The notes beneath the pieces are model-generated. The model made no database searches. It worked only from the letters and a program-made list of their open reading frames with translations, and was not told where the DNA came from. A program made the translations under genes and the position numbers. Below, in pieces: positions 1,784-61,260 of a stretch of DNA of 64,000 bases. Origin of the DNA: Cryobacterium adonitolivorans (GTDB taxonomy: Bacteria; Actinomycetota; Actinomycetes; Actinomycetales; Microbacteriaceae); contig NZ_SOFL01000045.1 in assembly GCF_004402695.1 (NCBI RefSeq), positions 29,935 through 93,934 on the forward strand, written 5' to 3'. Position 1 is the first letter of the stretch. Every line of letters starts with the position of its first letter.

Positions 1784-2785
1784 ATGAAAAAGCTTGTCAA
1801 CGACCCGAAGAACGTTGTCGACGAAGCCGTCGCCGGTTTCGGTGCGGCGCACGCGGATATCGTGCGTGTCTCCCTGGACCCCGTGTTCATCGTGCGTGCG
1901 GACGCGCCGGTGGCGGGAAAGGTCGGCATCGTCAGCGGCGGTGGCAGCGGGCACGAGCCCCTGCACGGTGGTTTCGTCGGGTTCGGCATGCTGGATGCGG
2001 CGGTGCCGGGCGCCGTGTTCACGTCGCCGACCCCTGACCCGATCCTGGCCGCCACCAAGGCCGTCGACGGGGGAGCCGGGGTACTGCACATCGTGAAGAA
2101 CTACACCGGGGACGTCCTCAACTTCGAAACGGCGGCTGACCTGGCCGAAGCCGACGAGATTGAGGTGCGCACCGTCATCGTCAACGACGATGTCGCAGTG
2201 AAGGACTCCCTGTACACCGCCGGTCGACGCGGTGTGGCCGGGACCGTCCTCGTAGAGAAGATCGCGGGCGCGGCCGCGGCCAGGGGTGACGACCTCACTG
2301 CCGTGGCCACCGTCGCAGAAAAGGTGATCGGCCAGGTGCGCTCGATGGGGGTGGCCCTGACTCCCTGCGTCGTGCCGCACGCCGGCGAGCCGAGCTTCAC
2401 CCTGGCCGACGACGAGATCGAGATCGGCATCGGAATCCACGGCGAGCCCGGGCGCGAGCGCATCAAGCTCGAACCGGCCGACGCGATCGTCGACCGGATC
2501 CTCGGACCGATCCTGGACGACCTCCCCTATGCATCCGGAGATAAGGTTCTGCTCTTCGTCAACGGAATGGGCGGGACGCCTCAGGTTGAGCTGTACATTG
2601 TATTTCGACGGGCCGCCGAAGTTCTCGCCGAGCGAGGCATCGAGGTGACACGCACGCTCGTCGGCAATTTCACAACATCACTGGAGATGCAGGGCATGTC
2701 GATCACGGTACTCAAACTCGACGATGAGTTGACCGCCCTGTGGGATGCTCCGGTACACACGGCCGCACTGCGGTGGGGAAAGTAG
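1784..2785 (+). CDS. dhaK: Dihydroxyacetone kinase subunit DhaK
   Basis: Binds dihydroxyacetone covalently through a histidine hemiaminal, so that phosphate can be passed on from DhaL. The 333-aa length matches the family. The substrate histidine is residue 219 in GIHGEPG, and [13 protein letters not shown] forms part of the sugar site. ATG 1784 is preferred over ATG 1778 because GAAGGA (1772-1777) is correctly spaced only for 1784; longer upstream readings lack family similarity. It is the first gene of dhaK-dhaL-dhaM, with 10 bp to dhaL. Together with glpFK it covers entry of both glycerol and dihydroxyacetone into glycolysis. Confidence 0.96.
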
Positions 2786-3436: not shown

Positions 3437-4165
3437 GTGGCTGACCTGAACGTGCCCGAGTCCCTCGTCGGTCTGGTTTTCGTCTCGCACAGCGTCGAGA
3501 TCGCCAGCGGCCTGGTGACGCTGGCCCGCCAGATGGCCCCGAACGTCGCCCTGGTGGCCGCTGGCGGCAGGGACGACGACGGAATCGGCACGAGCTTCGA
3601 CAAAATCGCGGCAGGCATAACGGAGGCCGACCGGGGCGGCGGCGTCGTCCTGCTCTGCGACCTGGGCTCGGCCATCCTCACCGCGGAGACCGCGCTGGAC
3701 TTCCTCGACGACGAGGTGCGGGCCCGGGTGCGAATCGCGGACGCACCACTCGTAGAGGGCGGGGTGGCAGCCGCCGTCGCGGCCGAGATCGGGGGAGACC
3801 TCGCGGCCGTGCTCGCAGCGGCTCAGTCGGCCCAGGGCGGCGGGTCGGCTCCGGCGGAGTCCGATTCGCCCGAACCATCGGGCACGGCCAGTACCGGGGA
3901 GGCCGCGCGGCCGGTCAGCCGCACGGTGACGTTGCGAAACCGGGACGGCCTGCACGCCAGGCCCGCCGCGGACTTCGTGAAACTCGCCAGTGGGTTCGAC
4001 GCCGAGGTCACCGTCAACGGCAAGGACGCGCACAGCCTGCTGGGCATCATGTCGCTCGGGCTGACCCGGGGGATGAGCGTGGAGATCTCCGGTCCCGACG
4101 AGCGATCGCGGGCGGCCGTGGATGCCCTGGCCGACCTGGTCGAGACCGGATTCGGCGAAGAATAG
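3437..4165 (+). CDS. dhaM: PTS-dependent DHA kinase phosphotransferase DhaM (EIIA-HPr fusion)
   Basis: Phosphoryl carrier that recharges DhaL-ADP from the PEP:sugar phosphotransferase system. It is 242 aa with two domains. The N-terminal EIIA(Man-type) domain has its active histidine at residue 18 (FVSHS). After a Pro/Ser/Ala-rich linker (about 135-160), an HPr-like domain has NRDGLHARPAADF with the active histidine at 173. The EI-like third domain of the E. coli protein is absent, so general EI must phosphorylate the HPr domain. The GTG start at 3437 follows dhaL directly. Confidence 0.93.
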   Translation: MADLNVPESLVGLVFVSHSVEIASGLVTLARQMAPNVALVAAGGRDDDGIGTSFDKIAAGITEADRGGGVVLLCDLGSAILTAETALDFLDDEVRARVRIADAPLVEGGVAAAVAAEIGGDLAAVLAAAQSAQGGGSAPAESDSPEPSGTASTGEAARPVSRTVTLRNRDGLHARPAADFVKLASGFDAEVTVNGKDAHSLLGIMSLGLTRGMSVEISGPDERSRAAVDALADLVETGFGEE

Positions 4166-4656: not shown

Positions 4657-5139
4657 ATGACCATGACCACAAATCCTCCCGCCGTTGTCGATAGCGGCAC
4701 CTTCACGGTGCGACGGACCATCACCATCCAGGCCCCGATGGACCGGGTCTGGGAGGCCATCACCGACGCTCGCCACATCGCCGCCTGGTTCGGGCAGTCC
4801 GCAATACTCGACACGGTGGCCGTCGGTGCCCGGGGAGTGTTCTCCTTCGAGGGCGTCGGCGACTTCCCGGTGCTGATCGAAGAACTCGAGCCGCCCCGCC
4901 TGATCGCGTATCGCCAGAGCAACGACAACACGCGTGCGGTCGACCCGGCCCGGGTCAGCCCCGAGCGATCGACGGTTTTCAGGTTCGCGCTCGAACCCGC
5001 GGGGGCGGGCACCCAGCTCACCGTTGTCGAGTCCGGATTCGACTCGTTGGCCGATCCCGCCGCCGGCATGGAGAGCAACCGTGGCGGTTGGGATGCGGAG
5101 CTCGACGAACTGGTGGCCTACCTCGAGGGCGGCTCGTGA
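4657..5139 (+). CDS. SRPBCC (AHSA1-like) domain protein
   Basis: A 160-aa START/Bet v1-fold protein that probably binds a hydrophobic ligand in its helix-grip cavity. The AHSA1 signature is clear: RTITIQAPMDRVWEAITD near residue 20, HIAAWFG, and a C-terminal GWDAELDELVAYLEGG. ATG 4657 has AAAGGA about 8 nt upstream. The stop overlaps the following regulator start in a GTGA. SRPBCC-ArsR pairs are common in Actinobacteria, where the regulator controls the pair. The ligand cannot be read from sequence. Confidence 0.9.
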   Translation: MTMTTNPPAVVDSGTFTVRRTITIQAPMDRVWEAITDARHIAAWFGQSAILDTVAVGARGVFSFEGVGDFPVLIEELEPPRLIAYRQSNDNTRAVDPARVSPERSTVFRFALEPAGAGTQLTVVESGFDSLADPAAGMESNRGGWDAELDELVAYLEGGS

Positions 5140-5453
5140 CAATCAGCACCCTCGTTCCCGTGTTCGCCGCGCTCGGCGACGAGACGCGGTGGAGCATTCT
5201 GGCAGCCCTGGGCGAGGGTGACGCATCGGCGTCCGCCCTCGCCGGGCGGCTGCCGGTCACCCGCCAGGCCATCGCCAGGCACCTTGCCGTTCTGCAGGAG
5301 GTTGGACTCGTGGATTCCGTGCGCGTTGGCCGTGAGCTGCGTTACCGGGTTATCGGCACGCAACTCAGCGACACGGCGCGGCGGCTGGACCGCATCGGTG
5401 ATGAGTGGGACCGCCGGCTGGCGGCCATCACGCGAATCGCCGAGGAGCTGTGA
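5136..5453 (+). CDS. ArsR-family transcriptional regulator
   Basis: A 105-aa winged-helix repressor. The HTH spans roughly residues 25-65 (ASALAGRLPVTRQAIARHLA, then LQEVGLV) and the wing follows (VRVGRELRYRV). No cysteine metal site is visible, so it belongs to the non-metal, SRPBCC-linked branch. GTG 5136 overlaps the upstream TGA, giving translational coupling; earlier in-frame starts would lie inside the SRPBCC gene. It probably binds the two TGCAAC-N6-GTTGC repeats upstream of the pair. Confidence 0.92.
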   Translation: MTISTLVPVFAALGDETRWSILAALGEGDASASALAGRLPVTRQAIARHLAVLQEVGLVDSVRVGRELRYRVIGTQLSDTARRLDRIGDEWDRRLAAITRIAEEL

Positions 5454-5465
5454 AACCCTCCTTCT

Positions 5466-5493
5466 TGTTGACATAATGTGCATTATCGGTCAT
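5466..5493 (-). other. dif: Chromosomal dif site (XerC/XerD dimer resolution)
   Basis: Read on the minus strand, the 28 bp are XerC arm ATGACCGATAA, centre TGCACA, XerD arm TTATGTCAACA. Compared with the actinobacterial dif consensus as I remember it (TTSNCCGATAA, TVNACA, TTATGTCAAGT), 25 of 28 positions agree. The inner palindrome ATAATG-TG-CATTAT is perfect. Placement in a gene-free gap is typical. Published consensus is from memory; the match to the XerD arm and inner arms is directly visible. Confidence 0.82.
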
Positions 5494-5702: not shown

Positions 5703-5730
5703 GTGCGCCAATCTGCATGTTATGTCAAGA
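5703..5730 (+). other. Degenerate dif-like half-site, inverted
   Basis: TTATGTCAAGA at 5720-5730 matches 10 of 11 positions of the XerD arm consensus and is opposite in orientation to the nearby dif. The partner arm (5703-5713) matches poorly. It could be a relic of a Xer-exploiting element or a decayed second crossover site. Confidence 0.4.
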
Positions 5731-5798: not shown

Positions 5799-8186
<2,388 letters not shown>

Positions 8187-61205: not shown

Positions 61206-61260
61206 ACTCGACCGGGGCTCCCCCGGGTCGGGCCAGTCGCGTGAGGCCGGCGGCTGCGGC

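Follow-up and report, generated by a model that had tools for sequence, protein, structure and literature searches.

A probable chromosomal dif site in Cryobacterium adonitolivorans, with a candidate FtsK-orienting motif and a nearby XerD half-site

Actinobacterial dif sites were predicted in a survey of 2011, none of them given as experimentally confirmed in the available text (PMC3025954). For Proteobacteria, the accessible part of PMC2533119 sets out a rule by which dif centres have to differ between replicons. Near the Bacillus subtilis terminus, XerD sites act in SMC unloading (Karaboja et al., 2021, as reported in papers citing it), and a Hi-C study of 2026 suggests, in the portion available, that SMC is unloaded at dif itself in Sinorhizobium (PMC13342612). 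The site described here can be compared directly with the predicted dif of Frankia alni (PMC3025954, available text). The preliminary description of this DNA had given agreement with an actinobacterial consensus at 25 of 28 positions; against the Frankia site the measured figure is lower, 22/28, with the 22 inner positions all alike and the six outer ones different. The Frankia site is also predicted at the terminus, and the Cryobacterium site additionally has a mapped polarity motif.

The stretch analysed (the window) is 64,000 nt long, bases 29935-93934 of contig C48 (167,866 bp) in a draft assembly of 58 contigs and 3.67 Mb. Its features are collected in Table 1. Positions 5466-5493 have the layout of an 11-bp XerC arm, a 6-bp centre and an 11-bp XerD arm, read on the minus strand just as first described, and lie in what is indeed a gene-free gap, between the stop codon of an ArsR/SmtB-type gene, 12 bp short of dif, and the 3' end of a UvrA-like gene. 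The start of the former is uncertain, with 5139 possible. The reading as the chromosomal dif of Cryobacterium, to which a probability of about 97% is given, is supported by a genus-wide core, by uniqueness, by the switch of a polar motif at the site and by a place opposite dnaA in relatives. The site is an ordinary example of its known type.

Table 1. Coordinates of the features in the window (position 1 is its first base)
Feature	Position	Strand	Remarks
CGGGGGAG, possible FtsK-orienting motif	2068..2075	plus	points toward dif
CGGGGGAG	3790..3797	plus	closest copy left of dif
ArsR/SmtB-type regulator gene	5088..5453	plus	NF033788, 63.2 bits, above the cut-off of 55
dif, XerD-binding arm TTATGTCAACA	5466..5476	minus	conserved core; arm named from the known dif layout
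dif, central region TGCACA	5477..5482	minus	inner four bases GCAC, as in 49/57 genus genomes
dif, XerC-binding arm ATGACCGATAA	5483..5493	minus	arm named from the known dif layout
Hexamer TGCATG preceding the half-site	5714..5719	plus	resembles the dif centre
Lone XerD arm (half-site) TTATGTCAAGA	5720..5730	plus	opposite in orientation to dif, on the XerC side, without XerC arm
UvrA-like gene, 795 aa	5799..8186	minus	3' end toward dif; TIGR00630, 677.1 bits, under the cut-off of 729.8
CGGGGGAG	6119..6126	minus	closest copy right of dif
CGGGGGAG, 12 more copies	last at 61218..61225	minus

With up to three mismatches allowed, the draft genome contains no second match to the 28-mer and so no better candidate; the sole other dif-like site is weaker and on a plasmid-type contig. 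The core CCGATAATNNNNATTATGTCA was found, with at most one mismatch, in all 57 Cryobacterium genomes, and a reversed control of the pattern had no match in them. When the chromosomal dif was chosen as the single site per genome with centre GCAC, GTAC, ATGC, GCGC or GCCC, these centres occurred 49, 5, 1, 1 and 1 times, respectively, and in the eight genomes without GCAC the motif polarity is consistent with the site chosen. Counting the exact GCAC core alone, with centre variants left out, it is present in 81 of 249 sampled genomes of the family (Microbacteriaceae) and 19 of 148 of the class. The same 25-mer appears in 26 named stretches, 23 from Cryobacterium and one each from Agreia, Frigoribacterium and Glaciibacter.

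Placement opposite dnaA rests on relatives within the genus, the assembly of C. adonitolivorans itself being in 58 contigs. Eleven genomes were searched for dnaA; in the ten used, all with single-contig chromosomes (single-contig G064 was left out), the shorter dnaA-dif arc covers 0.468, 0.477, 0.486, 0.492, 0.459, 0.490, 0.470, 0.493, 0.498 and 0.474 of the circle, putting dif opposite the replication origin in 10 of 10 (0.459-0.498). The dnaA match in one of the relatives, G031, is in two pieces, each under the cut-off.

GC skew and KOPS-like polarity had been proposed as checks on whether the window spans the terminus. The skew proved uninformative, weak and irregular, without a clear switch either in the window and its contig or in stretches of two chromosomes, and with no consistent sign per arm in 16 stretches from G007 and 20 from G024; it was dropped as terminus evidence. 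The E. coli KOPS, GGGNAGGG, was likewise dropped as a marker, being neither polar nor switching in these 36 stretches. What does reverse at dif is CGGGGGAG, found de novo by counting all 8-mers in the same stretches, oriented from origin to dif. It is the most skewed 8-mer, pointing toward dif 97 times to 3 over the whole arms of the two genomes. Near dif in the other 55 genomes, that of the window included, 250 copies point toward dif and none away (flanks mostly of about 5 kb per side, up to 10 kb for some). On the window's contig there are 6 copies on the plus strand left of dif and 25 on the minus strand to its right, all 31 toward dif, the strand changing in the interval from 1,676 bp on its left to 653 bp on its right. 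The bias extends to 39 loci of other Microbacteriaceae (73 toward, 0 away) and 16 loci of other families in the class (23 toward, 1 away). Within the window the motif is only mildly over-represented, with 15 copies (2 plus, 13 minus) against 8.58 expected; 2 of 100 shuffles reach 15. This modest excess, the missing GC-skew and KOPS switches and the draft state of the assembly count against the dif reading. Because CGGGGGAG switches at the site and the relatives' site lies opposite dnaA (10/10), the window can be said to span the terminus region, as had been supposed.

Comparable behaviour is described, in the available text, for AIMS, sequences of the FtsK-orienting type like KOPS (PMC5993296), and by analogy CGGGGGAG would be read by FtsK. 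It is thus a candidate orienting sequence for Actinobacteria where GC skew gives no help, and narrows the terminus on the window's contig to about 2.3 kb. In a record-level literature search, with most subscription literature outside it, no report was recognised on CGGGGGAG with FtsK or AIMS, on KOPS in Actinobacteria, on Cryobacterium with dif, or on XerD half-sites or XDS at the terminus.

The genome encodes the expected machinery. One gene matches the XerD model at 339.4 bits, above its cut-off; a second full-length match (265.5 bits, under the cut-off) is taken as the putative XerC gene on the strength of being second best to the XerD model, and there are two weaker partial matches besides. 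A single FtsK gamma domain was found (80.1 bits). By analogy with the known system, XerC and XerD would bind the two arms at 5466-5493. At the septum FtsK, steered by CGGGGGAG copies converging on dif, would pair both dif sites carried by a chromosome dimer and activate XerD; a crossover at the centre would then split the dimer.

A second element of the locus is the half-site of Table 1, a XerD arm without XerC arm 226 bp from dif on its XerC side, near the terminus. Its first nine bases, TTATGTCAA, have three exact matches in the genome, one within dif, one within the dif-like site on contig C41 and one at 5720-5728. It is read as a putative target of the same XerD that binds dif. Copies of TTATGTCAA lie within 1 kb of dif at 10 of the 57 genus loci, all on the XerC side, where 200 permuted motifs average 0.04; a copy in G007, 3.4 kb from dif, is on the XerC side too. 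A further 77 genomes of the Microbacteriaceae contain the exact core; 39 loci from these were examined, and seven of the 39 have a copy no more than 1.5 kb from dif, in each case in direct orientation and on the XerC side. Adding two named loci brings the tally to 18 of 98 loci with TTATGTCAA within 1.5 kb on the XerC side and none on the XerD side (17 of at most 97 genomes if L228 and L278, which have identical flanks, are counted once); 300 permuted 9-mers have means of 0.09 (maximum 3) and 0.07 (maximum 4) on the two sides, respectively. Copies in L350, L354 and L355, on the XerC side in one genus among the 16 class-level loci, lie inside a predicted reading frame and were left uncounted. 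Scored with a weight matrix derived from ten of these very half-sites, the 57 genus loci have 11 sites of at least 26 bits, and no other exceeds 17.4.

At the ninth base, half-sites tend to agree with the XerD arm of the local dif. Half-sites of A type accompany an A-type dif in 17 cases (G007 included) and a G-type dif in one (G021), and those of G type on the XerC side accompany a G-type dif in four cases and an A-type dif in none (Fisher p 0.0007, with the rows for C and T left out and related genomes counted separately). The G-type half-site on the XerD side in G064 is also in a genome with a G-type dif. Since the genomes are related, the p-values for half-sites are too small. When the base after TTATGTCA is C, G or T, the two sides of dif have six copies each in 96 loci: G four times and C twice on the XerC side, T four times and C and G once each on the XerD side.

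Some arrangements near dif are more elaborate. G064 (L118) has three further XerD-arm-like copies, TTATGTCAG, TAATGTCAG and TCATGTCAG, in steps of 20-21 bp behind the XerD arm of dif. In L282, L283 and L284 there is a second, inverted dif-like site 46 bp to the XerC side, with TTATGTCAG as XerD arm and the XerC arm partly kept. Two other explanations of the half-site in the window were set aside: as a -35 box (its reverse complement starts TTGACA) it lacks, by eye, a suitably spaced -10-like box, and as part of a stem-loop it folds no better than shuffles.

The half-site at 5720-5730 may be a working XerD-only site, resembling those near the B. subtilis terminus, where bound XerD, with no recombination involved, would free SMC or assist in loading FtsK or XerD; the chance of this is put somewhat below even. 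Like those reported by Karaboja et al. (2021), it is a XerD arm near the terminus beside dif; it differs from them in its one-sided placement within 1.5 kb of dif. The consistent XerC-side position of exact TTATGTCAA in 18 of 98 loci (permuted mean 0.09), the gap between at least 26 and at most 17.4 bits in the matrix scores, the tendency of the ninth base to track dif (p 0.0007) and the occurrence of half-sites in both orientations all favour function. Against it, no more than about one genome in six has such a site, kinship shrinks the p-values (of the four G-type sites, the three in L282-L284 come from one genus), and the one-sidedness is limited to TTATGTCAA, as TTATGTCA followed by C, G or T is split six and six between the sides, the six on the XerD side including G064 with its XerD-arm-like copies behind dif; the copies in L340 and L280 are inside predicted reading frames.

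The half-site could also be a relic of an earlier dif, left when an element entered by Xer recombination: of the two junctions, the right-hand one would still serve as dif and the left-hand one would no longer have its XerC arm. This is a tentative explanation, with the odds leaning against it. In its favour, nine of the ten genus half-sites are 10-83 bp past the end of a dif-facing reading frame called by a simple predictor (326 bp in G015), about where dif sits in many relatives without half-site; the preceding hexamer is similar to the dif centre; L282-L284 retain part of a XerC arm; and exchange at the chromosomal dif seems to occur in the genus (see below). However, five of the ten half-sites found within 1 kb of dif in the genus are inverted, which a single insertion would not yield, and decay predicts many same-side near-matches, where the 27 motifs differing at one position are found 10 times in all on the XerC side and 7 times on the XerD side. 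By eye, the DNA behind the half-site is unlike any of the flank types described below. An IS1202-type insertion beside the XerC arm, as in the available text of PMC10132070, was considered as a possible origin of the spacer.

Returning to a working XerD-only site, its wider form would be that Microbacteriaceae have an accessory site for XerD on the XerC side of dif, implying a second, recombination-free job for the protein (SMC release, or FtsK/XerD loading), a proposal more doubtful than probable at present. The half-site would let XerD-only action on SMC be tested in Actinobacteria.

Besides the chromosomal dif, 37 of the 57 genomes contain dif-like sites with centres of a different sequence, 50 sites in all; AATG (13) and AGTT (7) are the commonest of these centres. 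The extra site of C. adonitolivorans, at C41:25836 (L032, L066), reads ATCGCCGATAA TATCGA TTATGTCAACT and is identical to the window's dif at 21 of 28 positions. Its contig (74.9 kb, about 62 percent GC) has relaxase, TraG-type and ParB_N domains and is of conjugative-plasmid type. Extra sites in G004, G072, G017 and G016 are on second contigs of 79-187 kb, presumably plasmids; the circular plasmid pA28BH2 of Cryobacterium sp. ANT_H28B has a dif-like site with the C41 centre, and similar sites are present in plasmid records of Arthrobacter, Frondihabitans and Gordonia. Large contigs bear extra sites as well, in G024, in G031, three times in G005, and in G015 on the dif contig itself. The three in G005 (C1:815890, 868195 and 920497) have identical cores at a spacing of about 52.3 kb, perhaps tandem copies of one integrated element.

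The CGGGGGAG copies on several of these replicons also fit convergence on the extra site: 12 of 12 on pA28BH2 (p 0.003 against random motif orientation, as for the other values), 16 of 16 on G004 C2 (p 0.00025), 10 of 10 on C41 if circular (p 0.011), and on G072 C2 13 of 14 for one site (p 0.011) and 12 of 14 for the other, with 11 of 15 on G017 C2 (p 0.37, not significant). A pseudo-site slid along the replicon equals the real one at 20 (C41), 4 (G004 C2), 35 (G072 C2), 13 (G017 C2) and 11 (pA28BH2) percent of positions. Plasmid polarity was therefore rejected as proof of convergence, given G017 C2 and the weaker slide control, and the imperfect motif fits together with that control make it moderate evidence only.

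Divergent-centre dif-like sites of their own are likewise described for other replicons in the available texts on Vibrio cholerae dif1/dif2 (PMC2533119) and on large extrachromosomal replicons (PMC13342612), and convergence of orienting motifs on the extra-replicon site, seen here in several, is as in those multi-replicon systems. Unlike in those systems, the replicons here are actinobacterial plasmids or presumed plasmids of 62-187 kb, CGGGGGAG replaces GGGNAGGG, and convergence is not significant in one of five. With the pdif sites and dif modules of Acinetobacter (PMC13141974, available text) they have in common 28-bp plasmid sites, variable 6-bp centres and flanks common to differing centres; Cryobacterium usually has one or two sites per contig, in contrast to the Acinetobacter modules. 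With their non-chromosomal centres, the extra sites offer a natural test of the proteobacterial centre rule cited above.

A few flank types recur among the extra sites behind the XerD arm. When 51 of these flanks were compared with the DNA behind dif in the 57 genomes, nine (G030, G012, G061, G076, G026, G033, G006, G035 and G027) aligned with scores of 28-68, against 17 for the next genome, at most 15 for the XerC side and at most 13 for shuffles. In G030 and G012 the best match is to a site in the same genome. No complete element was found, and the window's genome, whose dif has no such flank, is not among the nine. The pattern suggests Xer integration, or exchange between replicons, at the chromosomal dif; together with the half-site, this is the part that merits bench work. 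That 5466-5493 is itself a plasmid- or phage-borne Xer site of an integrated element, rather than the chromosome's own dif, is very improbable: extra sites are common in the genus (50 in 37 of 57 genomes) and their flank adjoins nine chromosomal dif sites, but the window's dif has the centre of 49 of the 57 genomes, is free of that flank and coincides with the CGGGGGAG switch, and many relatives have a similarly sized reading frame (a likeness of size and position) ending beside dif.

Two kinds of repeats were noted by eye around dif-like sites. Upstream, in L040, L045, L046, L072, L161, L272 and L322, there is a XerC-arm-like repeat of about 12 bp resembling ATGTCGGGYRAT, possibly an accessory array. 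Downstream, in L058, L066, L161, L162, L268 and L272, there is an inverted repeat, TGCA-N5-TGCA or TCGCA-N5-TGCGA, a possible candidate for the binding site of some factor.
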